Shown here: positions 22,199 to 52,150 of the stretch, piece by piece
How the letters are laid out: each line of letters opens with the position of its first letter
How positions within the stretch are numbered: the stretch's first letter is position 1
NCBI RefSeq assembly: GCF_024158125.1
Contig: NZ_JAMZFT010000004.1
Coordinates: 62,001-126,000, forward strand
Length of the DNA: 64,000 nt
Direction of reading: 5' to 3'
Source of the DNA: Futiania mangrovi
GTDB lineage: Bacteria; Pseudomonadota; Alphaproteobacteria; Futianiales; Futianiaceae
Position numbers and translations under genes: made by a program
Notes under the pieces: generated by a model
Seen by the model: only the letters and a program-made list of their open reading frames with translations
What the model was told of the DNA's origin: nothing
The model's database searches: none

Positions 22199-22402
22199 AT
22201 GCCTCAGCGGCCCGGCGGGGCCGGTCGCGCCGGCTCGTCGTTCACCGTGGATCACGTTTCCTTTATCTTGCGGGGGCGACGCTGGTTTCCTGCCCTGCAA
22301 TACCGCACATAAGTCGAAGCGGGGCGTCGTCGCCCTCGCGCGGTCCGATCGGGGTTCGTTTCAGTCCGGGGGTTTTGCATGGGCAGGATGAAGGAGCAGG
22401 AC

Positions 22403-23176
22403 ATGGATGGACGCAGCCTGGCCGCCCGCGAACGCAAGGCGCCGGGCGTGGCGGTTGCGCCTGCCCGCGGTGCGCTCGCCCGGTTATGGCCGCTTGCCGT
22501 CCTGGGGGTGGGGCTGCTCCTCTTCTTCGCGCTGGGCGGCCCGTCCTATGTCTCTTTCGACACGCTGCGTGAGAACCGGGCGGATCTCATCGCCTGGCGG
22601 GCGGAGCACGGGGTTCTGGCGGCTTTCGCCTATGTGGCTCTATATGCGGCTGTCACGGCCTTCTCGCTGCCGGTCGCCTCGGTCCTGACCCTGACGGGCG
22701 GGTTCCTGTTCGGCTGGTTCTGGGGCGGTCTCTGGACAGTGACGGGGGCCACCCTTGGCGCCGCGGTGCTGTTCCTCGCCGCCCGGACGGCGCTCGGCGA
22801 GACCCTGAAAGCGCGGGCAGGGCCGTTCCTGAAGCGGTTCGAGGCCGGCTTCCGGCGCGACATGTGGAGCTATCTGTTCATCCTGCGGCTCGTGCCGGTC
22901 TTTCCGTTCTGGCTGGTGAACCTCGCGCCTGCCTTCCTGGGCGTGCCGCTTCATGCCTTTCTGGTCACGACCTTCCTGGGCATCCTGCCCGGCTCGTTCG
23001 TGTTCGCGTCGGTCGGGGCGGGGCTCGGGGCGGTGTTCGACCGGGGCGAGGATCCCGACCTCTCCGGCATCCTGACCGATCCGGCGGTCTTCCTGCCGAT
23101 CCTGGCGCTGATCGCGCTGGCGCTGGTACCCGTCGTCTACAAGCGCCTCGTGCGCCGGCCGGGACTGCCTCAATGA
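22403..23176 (+). CDS. TVP38/TMEM64 family membrane protein
   Basis: The 257-residue polytopic membrane protein has a VTT/SNARE-associated (DedA-like) core: FSLPVASVLTLTGGFLFGWF, the GATLGAAVLFLAAR segment, and FLVTTFLGILPGSFVFASVG. The ATG at 22403 is chosen because AAGGAG lies 6 nt before it; ATGs at 22379 and 22388 are weaker. Family members are thought to be lipid scramblases or transporters. The stop overlaps the start of the disulfide oxidoreductase gene by 4 bp (ATGA), and similar proteins are sometimes fused to such oxidoreductases. Confidence 0.9.
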   Translation: MDGRSLAARERKAPGVAVAPARGALARLWPLAVLGVGLLLFFALGGPSYVSFDTLRENRADLIAWRAEHGVLAAFAYVALYAAVTAFSLPVASVLTLTGGFLFGWFWGGLWTVTGATLGAAVLFLAARTALGETLKARAGPFLKRFEAGFRRDMWSYLFILRLVPVFPFWLVNLAPAFLGVPLHAFLVTTFLGILPGSFVFASVGAGLGAVFDRGEDPDLSGILTDPAVFLPILALIALALVPVVYKRLVRRPGLPQ

Positions 23177-30463: not shown

Positions 30464-30789
30464 AGAATTAACGTAGCACAGATGGGCCAATTTCTGCTAC
30501 GGGCCAAACTCAACCTGCGGACGATCTCAAGAATGACAACCGGGCCCGTATTGCTGCTGCCGAGGAGAAACGGAAGACGCTTGGCCGAACGGATCTGCCG
30601 GTAATCCCAGTGGACTGCGGCGGACGTTCTCGGGGGAAACCCGCCTGATACAATGCGGCTGACCTTGGCGTGGTTTTCGGGGCGCCGCGGAAGATGATCG
30701 CCCATTGCTCCCTCCGCGCAAGCGGGCAATTGTCAACCGTCGGCTCTGGCTTCAGCTGGATGAGTGCCGGGGGTCACAGCAATCCAGTA

Positions 30790-30804
30790 CCGATGCGCCA
30801 TTTT
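30790..30804 (+). repeat. Candidate att-type repeat, right copy
   Basis: CCGATGCGCCATTTT differs from the tRNA-Arg 3' end at 29776-29790 by one base. It lies in non-coding DNA 51 bp before the PAS kinase start and could be the distal border of a roughly 1-kb insertion. Confidence 0.35.
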
Positions 30805-30854
30805 TTGCGTTAACTTTCGGTACAGCAATTTGCTGCCCATCAGGGGGCATTCAA

Positions 30855-32873
30855 GTGGTCGAGCAGCTTGATCCCATTATTGAGGCGTTCGACCTTCTGG
30901 AAACAGGTCTGGCGGTCTTTGACAAAAGACTTCAACTGGTCAGATGCAATCCGGCATTTCGGACGCTGCGGCGATACCCTGACGACCTCTGCCGTCCGGG
31001 TATCGCACTCGAAGACCTGCTGCGCTTCAACGCGCAGCGCGGCGATTTTGGTGCAGGTTCTGTCGACGGGCTCGTCAGCGAACGCCTGGGAGAGATAAGG
31101 CGGACGGATCGGCGCGATATCGAACAACGAATGGCGGACGGTCAGGTTCTGCGCATCCGCTACCGACGGTCTCCGTCAGGGGCGCTCGTCGTCGCGATGG
31201 AGGACACGACGGAAACCAGTCAGGCTGAACGGGCCCTTGCTGCGAGCGAGGAGCGTTATTCCCTCGTCACCCGGGCGACCAGTGACGGCATCTATGACTG
31301 GAATGTCGCGGAAGACCTGCTTTTCGTCTCGGATCATCTTCGCGTGATGATGGAATTCGACGCCGGGCTCAAGGGCTCCAGGGCTTGGGCCGACCGGGTT
31401 CACCCGGATGACAAGGCCCTTTATGCGCAGGCCATGCGGGATCACTTCCGCGGCGACGCGGAAGCGCTCGACTGCGAATATCGCCTGCTATACGCGGACG
31501 GCGGATACCGATGGATCCATGACCGGGGCGTTGGGGTCAGAGACGAAAGCGGGCGGGTAAAGCGACTTGTCGGGGCGGTTCGTGACGTCACGGAGCTTCG
31601 CCAGCGGGAGGCGGAGGTCAAGGCAGCCAGTATCCGTTTCGAGGAAGCCATAGAGGCGGTTTCGACCGGCTTTGCGCTCTGGGATGCAGATGACCGGCTG
31701 ATCGTCTGCAACTCGCGGTACCGCCTTTACTTCGAGCAATTGAGCGACATCGCCGCTCCCGGGATCAGGTTCGCTGACCTGATGGCAGTCGCATTGGCGC
31801 GGGGCATCTTCCCGGGCCACGAGAACGATCCCGCGGGCTTCCTGCAGGAAACCTTCGCACGCCGGGCGCGGGCGGACGGTCTGCCGCGGGAACAGCGCCT
31901 TGTCGGTGGTCTTTGGCTCCAGGTTACCGATCACCGTACCGCCGATGGGGGCCTTGTCTCCATCTACAGCGATGTCACATCCCTCAAGGAGAGGGAGGCG
32001 GAAAGCCGGCGCGACAAGGAAGCCGCCGAAGCTGCCCTGGCGGAACTTCAGCGCGCGCAGGCACAGCTTATCCAGGCAGAGAAGATGGCGAGTCTCGGCC
32101 AGCTGACCGCAGGAATCGCTCACGAGATCAAGAACCCGCTGAACTTCGTCAATAATTTCTCCAGGCTGTCAGCCGAGATGATGGATGAGCTTTCCGAGCT
32201 TCTGGCGGAGCCCATCTCCACGCTGCCGGAGGAGCCTCGCGCCGATGCGAACGATCTGATCGGAACGGTTGTAGGCAATCTGCGCAAGATCGACGAGCAC
32301 GGCCGCCGCGCGGACAGCATCGTCAAGAACATGTTGCTGCATGCCCGTTCAGGTGACGGCAAGCGCCAGCCAGTCGATGTCAACATGCTGGCCGAGGAGG
32401 CGATGGCACTCGCCTATCACGGCGCGCGCGCGGCGGACCCGGGCTTCAATCTGACGTTGGTTCGCGACTTCGATCCTGCCACGGGCAGCATCGAGGGGGA
32501 GCCGCAAGACCTGCAACGGGTCCTTATCAATCTTTGCGCCAACGGGATGTATGCCGCCGCGCGTCACGCGGCCGACGCAGGAGGCGAGGCCCGCCTCTCG
32601 GTCGCGACGCGGCGCGAGAACGACGAGGTCATTCTCGAGGTCCACGACAATGGCGCCGGTGTGCCCGCAGATGTGCGCGACAAGATCTTCCAGCCCTTTT
32701 TCACAACCAAGCCGACGGGCGAAGGGACGGGCCTCGGACTTTCCATGAGCTACGACATCGTCAGAAAGCACGGTGGCTTTCTTACCCTCGAAGAGGCGGT
32801 CGGAGGGGGAGCCCGTTTCAGGGTCGTGCTTCCTGCACGGGGAGCACACGCGAGCGGGGGGACACGCCGATGA
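30855..32873 (+). CDS. Cytosolic multi-PAS sensor histidine kinase
   Basis: The 672-residue kinase has no membrane helix. It has three PAS-type modules (about residues 5-115, 125-255 with the HPDDKALYAQAMRDH of a PAS_3 fold, and 265-385), then a coiled coil and H box GIAHEIKNPLNFVNN with His423. The ATPase domain has NLCANGMYAA, DNGAGVP and GTGLGLSMSYDIV. The start is GTG at 30855 behind GGGGG at a 7-8 nt spacing. An ATG at 30705 would add 50 residues that do not look like protein. The stop overlaps the response-regulator cyclase by 4 bp, making a coupled pair. Soluble PAS input suggests an internal redox, light or ligand signal. Confidence 0.92.
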   Translation: MVEQLDPIIEAFDLLETGLAVFDKRLQLVRCNPAFRTLRRYPDDLCRPGIALEDLLRFNAQRGDFGAGSVDGLVSERLGEIRRTDRRDIEQRMADGQVLRIRYRRSPSGALVVAMEDTTETSQAERALAASEERYSLVTRATSDGIYDWNVAEDLLFVSDHLRVMMEFDAGLKGSRAWADRVHPDDKALYAQAMRDHFRGDAEALDCEYRLLYADGGYRWIHDRGVGVRDESGRVKRLVGAVRDVTELRQREAEVKAASIRFEEAIEAVSTGFALWDADDRLIVCNSRYRLYFEQLSDIAAPGIRFADLMAVALARGIFPGHENDPAGFLQETFARRARADGLPREQRLVGGLWLQVTDHRTADGGLVSIYSDVTSLKEREAESRRDKEAAEAALAELQRAQAQLIQAEKMASLGQLTAGIAHEIKNPLNFVNNFSRLSAEMMDELSELLAEPISTLPEEPRADANDLIGTVVGNLRKIDEHGRRADSIVKNMLLHARSGDGKRQPVDVNMLAEEAMALAYHGARAADPGFNLTLVRDFDPATGSIEGEPQDLQRVLINLCANGMYAAARHAADAGGEARLSVATRRENDEVILEVHDNGAGVPADVRDKIFQPFFTTKPTGEGTGLGLSMSYDIVRKHGGFLTLEEAVGGGARFRVVLPARGAHASGGTRR

Positions 32874-34126
32874 CCGGGGCAGTGCGCATTCTTGTCGTCG
32901 ATGACGAGCCCGATATCGAGGCGCTGGTGACGCAGCGCTTCCGACGTGAGATCCGCAAGGGCGAGATGTCCTTCGTGTTCGCCCGCGACGGCGAAGAGGC
33001 CCTGAAGGTTCTCGATTCCGATCCCGAGGTGTTGATGGTCCTGTCTGACATCAACATGCCGCGGATGGACGGGCTGACGCTCCTTTCGCGCATCGGCGAG
33101 GCGCATCGCGACCTCCGAACGGTCGTTGTCTCAGCCTATGGCGACATGACGAACATCCGCACGGCGATGAATCGCGGGGCGTTCGACTTCCTGACCAAAC
33201 CGATCGAATTCTCCGATCTCGATACGACCATCCGCAAGACGCTGAGCCACCTCGAGGAATATCGCGAGATGCAGCGCCGGCAAGCCGAGGCAGAGCTCTC
33301 GCGCGCCATTCTCGCCCGCTATTTCTCACCGAACATCGTGGCAAGCCTCTCCTCCCAGTCGGGTGGGTTCAAGCCACGGGGCGAGTGGCGCGAAGCGACG
33401 TTCCTGTTCACCGATCTGGCCGGGTTCACGCACCTCGTCGAAACGACATCCCCCGATGTCATCGGCGACCTGCTCAACGCCTACATCGACGGCATCGCCC
33501 GGATCGTGTTTGCCCACGACGGCACCATGATGAAGGTCATAGGCGACGCGATCCATGCTGCCTTCGGGGCGCCGGTCGCCCAGCCGGATCATGCCGAGCG
33601 CGCAGTAGCCTGCGCCCTGGATATCGACGAATTCGCAGAGGCCTATCGGGAGCATTGGCGGGCGCGAGGGATCGATCTGGGTGCCACGCGGATCGGCGTG
33701 AACTCGGGCAAGGCAATGATCGGAGACTTCGGAGGGGACGCCTTTTTCGACTATACGGCCTATGGCGATGCGGTGAACATCGCCTCGAGGCTCGAAGCCG
33801 CCAACAAGGTTCTGGGCACGCGGCTATGCGTGAGCCAGAACACCGTCGACAGGATCGCCGGCTTCACAGGCCGCCCAATCGGCCTGCTGCAATTGCCGGG
33901 CATGTCGGAGCCGGTGCCCGCTTACGAGCCGCTTGATCCGTCCCGGGCAGATTCCCCGGAGGTGGCCGCCTATACCAGCGCCTACGGTCTTCTTGCAGGA
34001 GGAGATACCTCCGCCCGCCAGGCGTTCGCAGCCCTGGTCGGCGCAGCGCCTGACGATCCTCTTACACTCTTTCATTTGCAGCGGACACTGGCAGGTGCGA
34101 CAGGTATTCTGATCGATGCGGGCTGA
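32870..34126 (+). CDS. Response regulator with class III adenylate/guanylate cyclase output
   Basis: The 418-residue protein has a receiver domain at 1-125 (VDDEPDIE, phosphoacceptor Asp60 in LSDINMPRMDG, LTKPIE) and a linker helix. The class III cyclase domain has metal Asp in FLFTDLAGFTHLVE, substrate Lys and Asp in MMKVIGDAIHAAFG, and the catalytic Asn/Arg in GDAVNIASRLEAANK. The Lys in MKVIGD and Asp-Tyr-Thr in FFDYTAYGD favour adenylate cyclase. It is coupled to the PAS kinase, so phosphorylation would directly set cAMP production. A 60-residue helical tail follows. All catalytic residues I can check are present. Confidence 0.92.
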   Translation: MTGAVRILVVDDEPDIEALVTQRFRREIRKGEMSFVFARDGEEALKVLDSDPEVLMVLSDINMPRMDGLTLLSRIGEAHRDLRTVVVSAYGDMTNIRTAMNRGAFDFLTKPIEFSDLDTTIRKTLSHLEEYREMQRRQAEAELSRAILARYFSPNIVASLSSQSGGFKPRGEWREATFLFTDLAGFTHLVETTSPDVIGDLLNAYIDGIARIVFAHDGTMMKVIGDAIHAAFGAPVAQPDHAERAVACALDIDEFAEAYREHWRARGIDLGATRIGVNSGKAMIGDFGGDAFFDYTAYGDAVNIASRLEAANKVLGTRLCVSQNTVDRIAGFTGRPIGLLQLPGMSEPVPAYEPLDPSRADSPEVAAYTSAYGLLAGGDTSARQAFAALVGAAPDDPLTLFHLQRTLAGATGILIDAG

Positions 34127-34296: not shown

Positions 34297-34489
34297 ATGC
34301 CAGTTCTTCTGACAAGCCCGGCATGTCAGTTTCCGTTACACCGTAGAAAGCGCAGAACCCATCAAAGATGGGCATTTATGAGCGCGGCAGACCTCGGTTC
34401 ACAGTGTGGGTGTCGGATTGCTTTTCAGGTATGAGTTAGCAATGGCGCTCAAATCGCGATACGCAATTGAAAACAGAGGGGGGCGTACT

Positions 34490-34505
34490 TGGAACAAATT
34501 TTGCT
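34490..34505 (+). promoter_or_regulatory. Sigma-54 (-24/-12) promoter of PEP-CTERM-like protease
   Basis: TGGAACAAATTTTGCT matches the consensus TGGCACG-N4-TTGCW at all but two positions and keeps the invariant GG (34491-34492) and GC (34503-34504) exactly 10 bp apart. It lies 49 bp before the protease ATG. PEP-CTERM genes in other bacteria have been linked to sigma-54 control through PrsK/PrsR. A matching element precedes the small sorting-signal gene at 51762. Confidence 0.68.
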
Positions 34506-34553
34506 TGCTCCTTACCCTTAAGACCTGCGCTGCGAGAAATCCAAGTGTGAGCC

Positions 34554-35378
34554 ATGTTCGGAAAAGACCTAATTCGCTCAGTTTTAACCGCCCTCGGGCT
34601 TGTGTTTCTTTGCGCAGGTTCGGCGCACGCCGTGCCACTCGGCGCCAGCACGCAAGATAGCTCGTCCGTTTATCCATATGTCGGCAGCGTGTATTATGGA
34701 AGTTGGGGCTCCGGTATCCTCATCGCTCCGGACGTTGTTCTAACGGCCGGGCACGTAGTTGAAGAGGCTCTCTCCTATGCCGGCACGAGCGTATTCCTGA
34801 CCGGTGTTGGGCCTTTCACCACCACACCGCCGGAAACAGCCACATCTATAATTGGCGGGATTTTGCATCCGTCCTATGATCCTTCTGTATTTGGCGAAAA
34901 CGATATCGGAATTTTGTTTCTCAGCGCCAATGTAAACCTTGCTCAATATAGCGTGCTTTTCGCCGAGCCCGCGAGTGGTCTGGGTGGGGAGGCGGCTTCT
35001 GTAGTGGGCTATGGCTTGAACCTGACGCGCCGCATAGGCTCGCTAGCCATCGATAGCGCGTATACAACCGACAATGCAATTTGGGCATTCGACAGTAGCA
35101 TCCCAATGGTCGAAGGCGGGGACAGTGGAGGCGGTTTATTCGTGGAGCGTGGGGGTCAGCAATTATTGGCGGGAATTACCTCCTTCACAAGTATTTCAGC
35201 CCCTTATTATTCATATTTTGTATCAGTAAGTGGGTTCCGTGAATTCATCGACGGCAACGCCCCTCAAGCCCAATGGTATGGTGGTGCGAGGCCTGTCTCG
35301 GAACCGTCGGCTGTCGTCGTGTTTGGCCTCGCGATCATTGGCCTCCTCTCCGCAGCAGGCCGCCCTAGATCGCAATAG
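34554..35378 (+). CDS. Trypsin-like serine protease with PEP-CTERM-like sorting tail
   Basis: The 274-residue exported protein has a signal peptide to about residue 26 (SAHA). The chymotrypsin-fold catalytic triad is His67 in TAGH, Asp117 in ENDIGIL and Ser191 in GGDSGGG. A C-terminal tripartite tail follows: SEPS (249-252), a hydrophobic helix and a basic end (GRPRSQ), the form of exosortase-processed PEP-CTERM signals. The coding sequence is clearly lower in GC than the surrounding genome. A sigma-54 promoter match precedes it, and an exosortase is encoded 15 kb away. It is flanked by a MITE-like element and an IS6 remnant, so it is likely acquired. Confidence 0.88.
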   Translation: MFGKDLIRSVLTALGLVFLCAGSAHAVPLGASTQDSSSVYPYVGSVYYGSWGSGILIAPDVVLTAGHVVEEALSYAGTSVFLTGVGPFTTTPPETATSIIGGILHPSYDPSVFGENDIGILFLSANVNLAQYSVLFAEPASGLGGEAASVVGYGLNLTRRIGSLAIDSAYTTDNAIWAFDSSIPMVEGGDSGGGLFVERGGQQLLAGITSFTSISAPYYSYFVSVSGFREFIDGNAPQAQWYGGARPVSEPSAVVVFGLAIIGLLSAAGRPRSQ

Positions 35379-41904: not shown

Positions 41905-43548
41905 TTACCCGGAAAACCTGATTCCGCTGCGAACCATCGGTAGGGCGGCCGGTATGGGCTGTCCGATCGCGAGGATCGCGTTGGCCAGATCGGTCTCGGA
42001 GGCTTGGTATTCAGGCGTGGTTCGCACCATTTCGAACAACTCAGCCTTGAGCGCGTCGGAACTGCGAGACTCGGCGGCCGAGAAATCCCAGCTCACCTCA
42101 AGCGCGTCGCGTGCTTGGAAGGCGGCCCAGGTGGTTTCGGCGTAGACCATGACGCCCCTGTTGTTGGGCATCTCGATAGCCATGATGAAACCGGGAATGA
42201 TGCGCGCGGCGCTGTCGTCAAAGGTGGCGACCGTCCCGCCGAGACGTGGCGCGCGCCTGATCGCGACGACCATCTGGTTGTCCAGTTGAACGTCCATCGA
42301 GAACTGTGCCGAGCCGTCGATCTTCGCTGGGGTGTCGAGCCGGCCCTTCTGGTCGACGCCGATCACGCGCCACTCGGACGGGTCCTTGAGTCGCGGTTCG
42401 GCGGGTACGTCGCGCGTTGCGGCAGCGGCTACGAAATCGCCGATCCCTGCCGAATGGCCGGCACCGGAAATGATGCCGTCGCGAAGGATCGGGTTCGACG
42501 GGCGGACACCCCAAGCCTCGGCGGCGGCGCCAATCAACATTTCTCGGGCTGCGGCCGCCGCGGTCCCATACTGCATGAAGGAATTCGCCATCGCCGTCGA
42601 GCCGCCGGTACCTTGCGAGCCGAAGAACAGATTGGCGTAGCGTGCGTTGTCCGCAGGGGCCATCTCGAACCTGATGTCCTGGAGCGACATGTTCAACTCT
42701 TCGGCGATGAGCGCCGAAAGACCGGTGGCCGTGCCCTGGCCGCCTTCGAAATGCTTGATGATGGCGGCGATGGTGCCGTCATCCTGTGCCTTGCGGTCGC
42801 CCAGAAGGCGGTCCGCATCGGGACCGGCGCGGAAGCGCAGGCGGTCTCCGGTCTCGTTGGCCGCGTCCCAGATGACCCCGGCGACGACCTCGGGCGCGGA
42901 CGGGTCGGAGGCTAGCTTGCCGAAGAGACGTCCCATCGCCTCGGCCGTGGGGGCGTAGTCGGAGAGACTTTCGTCCATCGCGAAATCGAAGGACCGGCCG
43001 CCGAAGTCCGTCTTGATCATGCCCGGCTCGACGATTCGCACCCGGATGCCGAGCGGCTCCAACTCGTAGTGGAGAGCCTCGGACAGGCCTTCGACCGCGA
43101 ACTTCGTGCCGTGATACAGCGTGCCGAGCGGGAAGGTGATCTGCCCGCCGATGGAGGAGATGTTGACGATCGTGCCGGAGCGATTGGCCCGCATATGGGG
43201 CAGCACGGCCTTCGTCACCTCGAGGAGCCCGATCACGTTGGTGTCGAACTGGCGACGGATCCGCTCGGTCGAGAAGGCTTCGAGCGCACCATAGGCGCCA
43301 TACCCGGCGTTGTTCAGGAGCACGTCGATCTTGCCGAACCGGGAGATGCCGCCTGCGACGGCGTCCGAAATGGATCCCGCATCGGTGACGTCGAGCCGGG
43401 TGACGAGGACGTTTTCCAGACCGTCAAGCTCGGCTGCGGTAGACGGGTCGCGCATTGTGGCGATCACGGTCCAGCCTTCGGCCTGGAAGCGTTTGGCGGT
43501 TGCCCTGCCGATGCCCGAGGAGGCTCCTGTGATCAGGATGGTTTTCAT
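41905..43548 (-). CDS. In-frame chimera: SDR fused to IorB-like molybdopterin subunit pieces
   Basis: A 547-residue open frame. Residues 1 to about 258 are a nearly complete SDR (TGASSGIG, NNAG, catalytic YHGTK at 145-149, FRAGPDADRLLGDRKAQDD near its normal end). From about 259 to 515 it becomes the interior of an isoquinoline 1-oxidoreductase beta-type molybdopterin subunit (IIKHFEGGQGTATGLSALIAEEL, FFGSQGTGGSTAMANS). The last 30 residues (TDLANAILAIGQPIP) resemble the C-terminal tail of such subunits, with some hundreds of residues missing between. It lacks the Tat/N-terminal part of IorB. It was probably formed by deletions near IS6 remnant 3. The SDR half could be active. Confidence 0.8.
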   Translation of the reverse strand: MKTILITGASSGIGRATAKRFQAEGWTVIATMRDPSTAAELDGLENVLVTRLDVTDAGSISDAVAGGISRFGKIDVLLNNAGYGAYGALEAFSTERIRRQFDTNVIGLLEVTKAVLPHMRANRSGTIVNISSIGGQITFPLGTLYHGTKFAVEGLSEALHYELEPLGIRVRIVEPGMIKTDFGGRSFDFAMDESLSDYAPTAEAMGRLFGKLASDPSAPEVVAGVIWDAANETGDRLRFRAGPDADRLLGDRKAQDDGTIAAIIKHFEGGQGTATGLSALIAEELNMSLQDIRFEMAPADNARYANLFFGSQGTGGSTAMANSFMQYGTAAAAAREMLIGAAAEAWGVRPSNPILRDGIISGAGHSAGIGDFVAAAATRDVPAEPRLKDPSEWRVIGVDQKGRLDTPAKIDGSAQFSMDVQLDNQMVVAIRRAPRLGGTVATFDDSAARIIPGFIMAIEMPNNRGVMVYAETTWAAFQARDALEVSWDFSAAESRSSDALKAELFEMVRTTPEYQASETDLANAILAIGQPIPAALPMVRSGIRFSG

Positions 43549-49149: not shown

Positions 49150-50667
49150 TCAGTGTGTTCCGCGCCGGGCCATGAAGGCTGAGGCGAACTCTAGGAGTAC
49201 GGCGTCGGGCAGCGGGGCCGTTCCTTCGTGTGCGACGACGAGGACGCCCGCCACGGGATGCGCACCCGCCAGCAGGCGTAGCGTGCGTTCCGCGGCAAGC
49301 GCCCGGCGGGAAGGCACGCTCTCGCCGTCGACGTGGAGAAAGGTGTCTGCGAACACCATGCGCGGCCCTTCGGTCTGATCGAGCACAACGGTCTCGCCCT
49401 GAAAGCAATAGCCGCCACCGCACACGCGGCGCGGCCGGCGCTCCTTGATCCACCAGAAGGCGTCTGGCGCGAGGTCGAGCGCCGCGCCCGCAACCTTTGC
49501 GCCGCGGCGCGCCGCCAGCGCCTGGAAGACCAGGACTCTTTGCCCGCCTTGCTCATAGACGGCCGCCTGGGTTGCGTCTGCATGCGGCGCGGCCGGGCTC
49601 CAGTCCTGCGGGCCGGTCACCTTCTCCCATCCGCCCACGCTTTGCGGCGCGGAAATGGAGGGGATGGCGGCGGCCGTCAGGCCCGGTGCCGGCCACGCGT
49701 GCGTCACGACGATCGCGGCGGCGGCGGCGGCGCCAGCCAGCGCGACCGCGCGGCGCGGACGCGCAACGCCTGCCTCGCGCACCGGCACGGTATCGCCTGC
49801 CTGGTCGCGCATGCGATAGGCCGCGGCAAGGAGCAGCGCGAGAATGACCGCCAGAACCGCCCACCCCACGCCGCGATGGGCGGAGATGTCCATCACCGCG
49901 CCCTGCCAGTGATTGTAAAGGACGATCAGGTTCACCCTTATGCCGTTCGCTACAATGGCCGCGACGGCCGCCGCCGCAGTCAGCGCCGCGGTCTTCAACA
50001 CCGTACGAAACAGCAGCAGGCCGAGCGTCAGGCCAACGAAGGACGTCGCGAGCAATTCTCCCAGGCCGGCGCAGGCAGCGACCACGGCATAGGGCTGACC
50101 CGCCACGGTGATGTTCAGGCCGTCGCGTACCGTCTCCAGTCCGGCGAGTGCGCTACCCTGCGCGACGAACCAGGCCGTAAGCGATGTCAGCGCCGGCAGC
50201 AATTGCTGGCCTGTCGGAACCAGAAAGACCACGAGCAGCAAGGGCGGCAGCGCCGCCCGGAAGGCATGCGGACCCAATCCCGCGTGCAGCACGCCGACCG
50301 CCATGCCGGCGAGCGCAAGGTGGCGGCCCTCGGCAATGCCGGCGAGGTCCGCAACGCTCCAACCTGCGGCGCACGCGATCGTCAAGGCGACGCCTGTCAG
50401 GCTGCCCGAGGGCGGTTCCTGCAGGATCCGCCCTCGCCGGTCCCACAAGATGTACAGCAGCGTGGGCAACACGAGGAAGCCATGGTTGTAGGTCTCGTTC
50501 GCCGCCCAGATGCGCACCATGTCGGCCGCGGTCGCTGCGTGGGCCGCCAGCAGGCTGACGAGTGCCAGCGCGAGGCCCGCACGTACCATCCCCCATCCGG
50601 GTGCGTATGCGGCCTGCGGTGTTGCCGCGAGGCTTCCGGAGGTTCCTGCGGGATGCGCCCGGCTCAT
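49150..50667 (-). CDS. Exosortase fused to EpsI-like domain
   Basis: A 505-residue membrane protein. Residues 30-290 form the eight-helix exosortase core with the presumed catalytic Cys199 in VAACAGLGELLA, Arg244 in NGIRVNLIVLYNH and His264 in SAHRGVGW. An upstream HGFLVLPTLLYILW motif is also typical. After another helix, residues 320-505 match the EpsI/DUF3485 type domain (PQSVGGWEKVTG, and CGGGYCFQGE with two Cys). Exosortases cleave C-terminal sorting signals at the inner membrane. The ATG overlaps the sterol-desaturase stop by 4 bp. The fusion resembles the XrtD-like arrangement, but the family is not certain. Confidence 0.92.
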   Translation of the reverse strand: MSRAHPAGTSGSLAATPQAAYAPGWGMVRAGLALALVSLLAAHAATAADMVRIWAANETYNHGFLVLPTLLYILWDRRGRILQEPPSGSLTGVALTIACAAGWSVADLAGIAEGRHLALAGMAVGVLHAGLGPHAFRAALPPLLLVVFLVPTGQQLLPALTSLTAWFVAQGSALAGLETVRDGLNITVAGQPYAVVAACAGLGELLATSFVGLTLGLLLFRTVLKTAALTAAAAVAAIVANGIRVNLIVLYNHWQGAVMDISAHRGVGWAVLAVILALLLAAAYRMRDQAGDTVPVREAGVARPRRAVALAGAAAAAAIVVTHAWPAPGLTAAAIPSISAPQSVGGWEKVTGPQDWSPAAPHADATQAAVYEQGGQRVLVFQALAARRGAKVAGAALDLAPDAFWWIKERRPRRVCGGGYCFQGETVVLDQTEGPRMVFADTFLHVDGESVPSRRALAAERTLRLLAGAHPVAGVLVVAHEGTAPLPDAVLLEFASAFMARRGTH

Positions 50668-51521
50668 TCGGCGGCTTCGCCGGCGGGGGGCTGCGCGCGC
50701 CCGGCGTCCGGAACGGGAGCGCCCGCCTGCCGGTCGCGGACGAAGGGCAGCGCGAGTGTGCGCAGGAAGCGCATGTCGTCCGGCTCCCGGAAATACTCGA
50801 GGCCCGCCGTGATCTCGTCCAGACGCTCGCTTTCCGGCGCGCGGTAGGTTCCGAATGTCCGGTCCCAGAAGGAGAAGACCACGCCATAGTTGCTGTCGGT
50901 CTGCGGCTGCCATGTCGAGTGATGGATGAAATGCATTCCCGGCGTCACGAAAATCGTGCGCACCGCGCGATCCAGACCTGCGGGCCATTGCAGGTTGGCA
51001 TGCGACCAGATGGTCACGGCGACCGCCAGGATCGCATAAAGCAGGATACCCTCCGCCGTCAGACCGAGGCCGCCCACGATGGCGAGCGTCAGAACCATGC
51101 TGCCAAGGGTCTCAAGCGGATGGTGCCGCTCTGCGGTGGTGAAGTCGATTTCGGTTTCCGCGTGGTGGACCAGATGCAGGCGCCACAGGAGGGCGGAGCG
51201 GTGCAGGACCACGTGCTCGGCATATTTGCAGGCATCGAGGATCAGGACCGTGGCGGCTGCGGCCAGCCACTCCGACCCGATCAGCGGGCGTAGCAGGCCG
51301 TGTTCGGCGGCAAATGCGGACCCCGCGACCTCGATCGCCGTCGCGGGCAGCACGACGCGGTGCAACAACAGCGTCATGGCATAAAGGCCGCCGTTCGTTG
51401 TCCAGCGGATCGCAAGGCTGACCCGGTGGCGATGCCACGGTGCGAAAAGCTCCAGCAGCGCGAAAACGATCAATGCGACGTAGAAGGCGTTCGCCTGTAC
51501 CAGCGTGATGATCTCTGACAT
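50664..51521 (-). CDS. Sterol desaturase / fatty acid hydroxylase family protein
   Basis: The 285-residue membrane di-iron oxygenase-type protein has four to five helices and the histidine clusters HVVLH (103-107), HLVHH (116-120), RHHPLE (132-137), SHAN and HFIHH (197-201). This is the family fold that hydroxylates or desaturates sterols, fatty acids or carotenoids. It lies between the 51-residue sorting-signal protein and the exosortase, with its stop overlapping the exosortase start. That is an unusual neighbour for an exosortase and suggests modification of a lipid or anchor used in the same pathway. That role is inferred. Confidence 0.92.
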   Translation of the reverse strand: MSEIITLVQANAFYVALIVFALLELFAPWHRHRVSLAIRWTTNGGLYAMTLLLHRVVLPATAIEVAGSAFAAEHGLLRPLIGSEWLAAAATVLILDACKYAEHVVLHRSALLWRLHLVHHAETEIDFTTAERHHPLETLGSMVLTLAIVGGLGLTAEGILLYAILAVAVTIWSHANLQWPAGLDRAVRTIFVTPGMHFIHHSTWQPQTDSNYGVVFSFWDRTFGTYRAPESERLDEITAGLEYFREPDDMRFLRTLALPFVRDRQAGAPVPDAGRAQPPAGEAAE

Positions 51522-51559
51522 CCGTTCTGCCCGGCCTTGTAGCGGCGTCCGGCGAGGAG

Positions 51560-51592
51560 GCGGCCGGAATCCGGGTGCCCGGTGCCGGCCGC
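51560..51592 (-). other. Nested hairpin between the tiny substrate gene and the desaturase
   Basis: An 8-bp outer stem (GCGGCCGG 51560-51567 with CCGGCCGC 51585-51592) encloses a 5-bp inner stem (CCGGG/CCCGG, 51571-51582). It has no T run. Lying 14 bp past the small gene's stop, it could stabilise or partly terminate the transcript so that the substrate outnumbers the exosortase. Inferred. Confidence 0.6.
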
Positions 51593-51606
51593 GCCCCGTC
51601 TGCCGG

Positions 51607-51762
51607 TTACTTTCTGCGGCGCGCCAGATAGACGCCGCCAACCACCGCCGCCGCCGCGAGACCCAGAATGCTGGGGCCGGGCAGGGTCGGCACGGGACCG
51701 CTCGCAAGCGCCGGCGTTGCAAGCAGCACAGCCGGTGCGATCAGGGTCAGGATACGAGACAT
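51607..51762 (-). CDS. 51-residue signal peptide plus C-terminal sorting signal protein
   Basis: The whole protein is a signal peptide (residues 1-20, ending PALA), about ten residues starting SGPVPTLPGP, a hydrophobic helix (SILGLAAAAVVGGVYLA) and a basic end RRRK. This is the tripartite form of an exosortase target with almost nothing between. GGAGGG lies 4-5 nt before the ATG at 51762. It heads the exosortase operon and is preceded by a near-consensus sigma-54 promoter. The motif VPTLPGPS is not the standard PEP-CTERM motif. After both cleavages only a peptide of about 8-12 residues would be released or anchored. Confidence 0.78.
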   Translation of the reverse strand: MSRILTLIAPAVLLATPALASGPVPTLPGPSILGLAAAAVVGGVYLARRRK

Positions 51763-51851
51763 GGAACCCTCCATCATTGTCTCTTCTTGTTTGCCGCATC
51801 CGAAGAAGCGGCAGGGGCGCGCCAGTCCGGCGTCCCCTGGAGGGTCTGACA

Positions 51852-51867
51852 AGCAATAATTGTGCCC
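51852..51867 (-). promoter_or_regulatory. Sigma-54 (-24/-12) promoter of the exosortase operon
   Basis: On the minus strand GGGCACAATTATTGCT keeps the invariant GG (51866-51865) and GC (51854-51853) 10 bp apart and differs from TGGCACG-N4-TTGCW at only two positions. The small gene starts 90 bp downstream. It lies in the 388-bp gap 51763-52150, which also has an AT-rich imperfect inverted repeat (CCCATT...TCAAAT / ATTTGAATGGG, 51865-51917) that could be an activator or enhancer site. No gene is seen in the gap. Confidence 0.75.
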
Positions 51868-52150
51868 ATTTCGCACTCAAATATTTCAATAACTTGCGAC
51901 CATATGATTTGAATGGGTGAAAAGAAGGCTGACGGTGCGTTTTCCATTGTGGAAAAGTCCGGAGCGACGGGGCGAATTCAGTCCCCTGCGCCCTGACCTG
52001 TTTTCAGCAGTCGCTCGATCAACGGGTGTCTTTGCGACCTGTCGAGCACTTGGGATCGCTATCGCCGCAAGGTCGGGAAATGTCGGCGGCGCATGACGTC
52101 GTCCCCCCAGGCGGAGACGGAGGCCCGTTCGCATTGGGCAAAGCGATCTC

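Follow-up and report, generated by a model that had tools for sequence, protein, structure and literature searches.

A probable PrsR/sigma-54 regulon membership for a trypsin-family protease with a PEP-CTERM-like tail in Futiania mangrovi

The locus considered here raises the question of whether a secreted protease with a sorting-signal-like C terminus, preceded by a -24/-12 promoter match, belongs to one sigma-54/PrsR regulon with a second gene bearing such a signal and with the exosortase encoded at 49.15 kb of the window, that is, the whole stretch of 64,000 nucleotides that was analysed. Such a regulon and such a link to the exosortase had been put forward in a preliminary description of the sequence. 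The elements of the protease locus are the following.

34411 to 34427, plus strand: PrsR-box-like element (motif 1) TGTCGGATTGCTTTTCA, 15.7 bits with a matrix from other genomes only, spacer of 62 nt to the -24 element
34490 to 34505, plus strand: -24/-12 (sigma-54) site TGGAACAAATTTTGCT, one mismatch to TGGCAYN5TTGCW
34554 to 35378, plus strand: secreted trypsin-family (S1) protease of 274 aa with a divergent PEP-CTERM-like (SEP) tail, PF00089 56.3 bits, triad H67/D117/S191
35295 to 35375, plus strand: C-terminal sorting-signal-like tail VSEPSAVVVFGLAIIGLLSAAGRPRSQ, ranked third of 1968 ORFs by a PEP-CTERM matrix

Judged from its sequence, the product is an S1 (trypsin) protease, since it scores above the cut-off of the Pfam Trypsin model (PF00089, E=5.3e-15, cut-off 20.6) and possesses the His-Asp-Ser triad. 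The three catalytic residues named in the preliminary description are exact, and their trypsin-family contexts TAGHVV, ENDIGI and GGDSGG align with those of solved S1 proteases (best E=4.1e-5). The sole cysteine, residue 20, lies inside the signal peptide, which was judged by eye. The gene stands alone behind approximately 430 nt without an obvious gene; its downstream neighbour is an alpha/beta hydrolase on the opposite strand, and its upstream neighbours (30705-34126, plus strand) are a PAS-histidine kinase and a receiver-guanylate/adenylate cyclase protein, a possible signalling pair. An orthologue with a conserved promoter was sought in 96 genomes and none was found: three match the protease, its own included, and the other two share 27-29% identity with it. 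The plasmid search for an orthologue gave no match. A Roseovarius trypsin domain obtained by contig search was rejected as an orthologue; it is devoid of a CTERM tail and continues in frame into a repeat-rich region that looks by eye like a calcium-binding export domain.

Trypsin-like proteases are known among the substrates of the GlyGly-CTERM/rhombosortase system. In the present protease the tail, PVSEPSAVVVFGLAIIGLLSAAGRPRSQ, displays the VSEPS-helix-basic organization that the preliminary description had reported as SEPS-helix-basic, and the protein combines a [PS]EP motif, a hydrophobic helix, a basic extreme C terminus and a signal peptide, as a PEP-CTERM protein does. It escapes the family models: the PF07589 and TIGR02595 searches do not report it, and the protease is absent among the hits listed up to E=20 with an HMM built from 13 tails of the same genome. 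This failure of the standard models would favour a tail that is a mere membrane anchor, uncut by any sorting enzyme, a reading that we hold to be rather unlikely: with a matrix of 57 tails, VSEPSAVVVFGLAIIGLLSAA-GRPRSQ owes its third rank to a score of 17.4 bits, its VSEPS is identical in the PF07589-matched member L013, and its regulation is common with that of the PEP-CTERM genes described below. The accepted members of the genome score 30.8 to 48.8 with this matrix, which they helped to train, and next below the protease are two other CTERM-like tails, with 6.6 and 5.6, after which the score falls to 0.4. The protease would thus carry a divergent PEP-CTERM-like tail, most likely served by XrtA.

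The -24 element of the protease promoter reads TGGAAC, with A in place of C, and the site ends 48 nt before the ATG at 34554; its position before the protease had been correctly noted, with a distance of 49 bp that needs this small correction. The window contains 13 matches to TGGCAYRN4TTGCW with at most two mismatches, versus 20.5 expected; of these, just two have a single mismatch, TGGAACAAATTTTGCT and GGGCACAATTATTGCT, the latter before the other CTERM gene. The coincidence noticed at the outset, by which the two CTERM genes of the window are the two with strong -24/-12 sites, is therefore real. The second promoter and the genes behind it are as follows.

51918 to 51934, minus strand: PrsR-box-like element CGTCAGCCTTCTTTTCA, 12.0 bits, spacer of 50
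51852 to 51867, minus strand: -24/-12 site GGGCACAATTATTGCT, one mismatch
51607 to 51762, minus strand: 51-aa mini-CTERM protein, in which VPTLPGPS-helix-RRRK comes right after the signal peptide, ranked fifth of 1968 ORFs by the PEP-CTERM matrix
50664 to 51521, minus strand: membrane enzyme of the fatty acid hydroxylase family, encoded second in the apparent operon, PF04116 88.4 bits
49150 to 50667, minus strand: second, divergent exosortase, its ATG overlapping the stop codon of the hydroxylase gene, PF09721 150 bits

Over the genome (3,391,920 bases in 5 contigs), TGGCAYN5TTGCW with at most one mismatch has 87 matches versus 111 for the reversed control pattern, and TGGNAN6TTGCW has 18 exact matches versus 10 for its control. 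Because the sites are no more abundant than chance would have it, a -24/-12 match of such quality means little alone; that of the protease is no exception, and it is its position and the second motif that give it significance. Equally good matches at unrelated genes, which the preliminary description regarded as fatal to its proposal, do exist for the -24/-12 pattern taken alone, as 72 of the 87 sites were not assigned to CTERM genes; the second motif disposes of this objection. The abundance of the pattern and the imperfect -24 element are also what would speak for a chance match, the protease being expressed from another promoter. We consider this very improbable, for a search upstream of the gene revealed no sigma-70-like site, and the second element stands at the published spacing with a score that none of the 72 other sites approaches.

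The position of these sites in the genome is telling. PF07589 matches 14 places, one of which (L014, E=1.7, 11.8 bits) was dropped because, on inspection by eye, it resembles a membrane protein that lacks a PEP-CTERM tail. Each of the 13 retained genes is preceded by a -24/-12 site, at 40 to 223 nt from the start codon as picked by the analyst. The enrichment upstream of CTERM genes, which had been proposed as a check together with the genome-wide count, is marked: in 11 of the 13 genes the site has at most one mismatch and lies within 250 bp, where 0.04 would be expected for 13 stretches of that length, and in the other two (L006 and L007) it has two mismatches. Sites were assigned to genes by reading the ORFs in the surroundings of all 87, and not from curated annotation. 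Two secreted proteins with CTERM-like tails, VDEPSMAGLMGLGLAGLALGGLRRRRMA and VNEAVPLGLVIAGIGGVFLLHRRPSAAAG, encoded at L165:902-1468 (minus strand) and at L172 (site at C1:1272100), also stand behind -24/-12 sites and are missed by PF07589. The product of L007 (C4:126635-126703, just past the window end) is a PEP-CTERM protein with, by eye, a thioredoxin-fold look, and its site CGGTACAATTATTGCTTG is almost the same as the mini-CTERM site GGGCACAATTATTGCTTG.

The second motif has a precedent. According to the passages available of Haft et al. (2006; PMC1569441), the upstream regions of PEP-CTERM genes in proteobacteria combine a 17-nt motif that ends in TTTACA with a -24/-12 site downstream of it; the spacer between the two averages 62.8 nt (range 32 to 92), the -24/-12 site lies on average 71 nt before the start, and the arrangement was tied to PrsR. 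The box used here was learned without the window, from PEP-CTERM genes that belong to the same class but to other genomes. Of 142 genomes, 17 match TIGR02595, that of F. mangrovi included. A usable start was available for 66 of the 68 gene loci read, and 26 of the 66 showed a good -24/-12 site; one of the 26 was dropped for its short upstream sequence, which left 25 regions. An EM search of these 25 regions yields a 17-nt motif, tGTCggaatTcTTTACA, with a log-likelihood of 151 versus 51-56 in five shuffled sets, and this motif resembles the published PrsR box. It is present at 14.8 bits or more in 18 of the 25 regions, all from genomes with a PrsR above the curated cut-off (7 of the 16 other PEP-CTERM genomes), which amounts to 18 of 21 sites where PrsR is found and 0 of 4 where it is not.

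Both CTERM genes of the window carry this box within 32-92 nt of the -24/-12 site, and both in the same TTTTCA form; both score above the 99% shuffle point of 8.7 bits, and the box of the protease has the most common spacer, 62. The five best box scores within the published spacing among the 87 sites are those of the protease (15.7), C2:277563 (12.0), the mini-CTERM gene (12.0), C4:280266 (11.1) and C2:336417 (9.1), the genes at C2:277563, C4:280266 and C2:336417 each having a SEP tail. All five precede CTERM genes and the best of the 72 other sites scores 3.9 (Fisher p=8e-5); when the CTERM side is restricted to the 11 sites defined independently by PF07589, a rank test against the same 72 gives p=0.03. 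The box is not uniform across the canonical PEP-CTERM genes of the genome, since 9 of the 13 score below 3 bits with the same matrix and have no clear box. Half-sites are seen by eye in some of the low-scoring genes, L006 and L011 sharing GTTAAnCCCAnCTTACA; searched de novo for a motif, the upstream regions of the 13 genes yielded no convincing box. A search with the combined pattern, written after both window sites were known and thus not an independent test, gives three hits (the two promoters and window 22364-22458) versus one for the reversed control.

The regulators expected for such promoters are encoded in the genome. A single PrsR exceeds its cut-off (662 bits versus 502.6, at C1:1206225), and it is clustered on C1 with PrsK (503 bits, cut-off 300), XrtA (321 bits, cut-off 208, at C1:1198214), XrtA-associated amidotransferase, deacetylase and ATPase genes, and export genes; RpoN is encoded on C2. 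The PrsR model also gives 328-383 bits to three more NtrC-like proteins, and one of them might be imagined to drive a sigma-54-dependent promoter at the protease in place of PrsR. None of the three reaches the PrsR cut-off, and the box is a PrsR-associated one, found in other PrsR genomes and absent at the four sites of genomes devoid of PrsR, so that we judge a different NtrC-class activator quite unlikely. A second motif at the published spacing, the five best of 87 box scores all before CTERM genes, the presence of PrsR, PrsK and RpoN, and sites before 13 of 13 PEP-CTERM genes together make the shared regulon of the two window genes, extended to the whole genome, a well supported prediction, and in this respect the preliminary description appears to have been right.

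The identity of the processing enzyme is a separate matter, on which the link to the exosortase is weaker than the shared regulon. In the 13 PF07589 genes the motif reads SEP in five (L003, L004, L005, L012 and L013), PEP in six and PAP in two, and SEP is thus a usual form of the XrtA-type signal in this genome. As a canonical XrtA is encoded on another contig beside PrsK and PrsR, and as five of the 13 tails read SEP, XrtA, and not the nearby exosortase, probably processes the protease. The preliminary description had itself stated that a different exosortase matching the SEPS motif would undo its link to the enzyme at 49.15 kb; XrtA appears to be that exosortase, and what survives of the link is the promoter type common to the protease and the apparent operon of the window exosortase. 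Its doubt that one enzyme would serve both SEPS and PTLPGPS seems reasonable, the gene beside the window exosortase having VPTLPGPS. The protease could nevertheless be a PrsR/sigma-54 target whose tail is processed by the divergent exosortase, since the two are on the same contig and their promoters have the same form of box. We believe this unlikely, because the SEP motif matches the XrtA-type set while the exosortase's neighbour carries another motif, and the genes, 14 kb apart, form no operon.

The more unusual part of the window is not the protease, it is the mini-CTERM operon. XrtA and the window exosortase are the only exosortases found in the genome; the latter scores 183 bits with the XrtA model TIGR03109, under the cut-off of 208, and its branch in a 16-row tree is long (2.47). 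A close relative was sought in 289 genomes and none exceeded 34% identity apart from itself; the plasmid matches, in four records, are distant as well (<34%). No hydroxylase or mini-CTERM match was found among the 16 stretches compared, 11 of which are exosortase neighbourhoods. The minus-strand unit from 51762 to 49150 resembles a single operon with a PrsR-type promoter in front, and a search of 50600-52140 revealed neither a terminator-like nor a sigma-70-like site; the window exosortase may by virtue of this arrangement be itself in the regulon. A bolder reading, which we offer tentatively and would not yet favour, is that PrsR and sigma-54 control the PEP-CTERM substrates together with a whole second sorting unit, composed of the 51-aa protein made almost entirely of a signal peptide and a sorting tail, the fatty-acid-hydroxylase-type membrane enzyme and the divergent exosortase. 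This exosortase would have in the tiny substrate its own dedicated peptide or a decoy, switched on with the XrtA substrates, the protease included. About ten residues of the mini-CTERM protein would remain after both cuts. Elsewhere in the window (41905-43548, minus strand), an ORF starts as a short-chain dehydrogenase-like protein and goes on, by eye, as part of an isoquinoline oxidoreductase large subunit; it is possibly chimeric or deletion-fused.

The promoter elements, the triad, the tail and the presence of XrtA, PrsK, PrsR and RpoN are read directly from the sequence, and the model that we propose with good confidence makes the protease an XrtA-processed member of a PrsK/PrsR-RpoN PEP-CTERM regulon. 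Phosphorylated PrsR would bind the box at 34411-34427 and, across the 62 nt that separate it from the downstream -24/-12 site, contact the sigma-54 polymerase there and open the promoter. The signal peptide would export the protease, which the SEP-helix-basic tail would hold in the inner membrane. The canonical XrtA, encoded near prsK and prsR in the exopolysaccharide cluster of C1, would then process it and release the cysteine-free S1 protease, presumably active, or hand it on to the cell surface or the matrix.

A regulon of this type has been known since 2006, as the consulted portions of PMC1569441 make clear, and the protease is an added member. It has in common with the PEP-CTERM/EpsH (XrtA) system described there the 17-nt box, the spacer of 32-92 nt and the -24/-12 site, the single-gene unit after a long non-coding stretch, and an XrtA exopolysaccharide cluster with PrsK and PrsR; it differs by a box ending in TTTTCA instead of TTTACA, by a SEP tail that escapes the PEP-CTERM models and by its product, a trypsin-family protease. 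The RpoN1-dependent pepA of Aquincola tertiaricarbonis (PMC9850573) is likewise, in the passages seen, a PEP-CTERM gene behind a mapped -24/-12 promoter with a predicted upstream enhancer; that promoter was tested experimentally whereas ours is predicted, and those passages do not describe PepA as a protease. The GlyGly-CTERM/rhombosortase system, as far as the excerpts of PMC3237569 go, also relies on a C-terminal sorting signal with a helix and a basic end, with GlyGly as the motif in place of SEP. In a literature search covering titles and abstract openings, neither a sigma-54-controlled PEP-CTERM trypsin-family protease nor a PrsR-governed exosortase operon was encountered.

What began as a coincidence between two genes becomes a regulon that extends over the genome and whose composite promoter can be tested. 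Sorting substrates that the standard C-terminal models miss, such as those with SEP, DEP or PTLPGPS tails, may thereby be recovered through the structure of their promoters, and one regulator would possibly serve two exosortases. Finally, the -24/-12 site TGGCACGCATCCTGCT at position 1794 of L002 (C1:1312544-1312559, plus strand), preceded by GTTAACCTTTACA, is an orphan, as no convincing gene follows it; a GC-rich stem seen by eye about 190 nt past this site could belong to a PrsR-driven small RNA.
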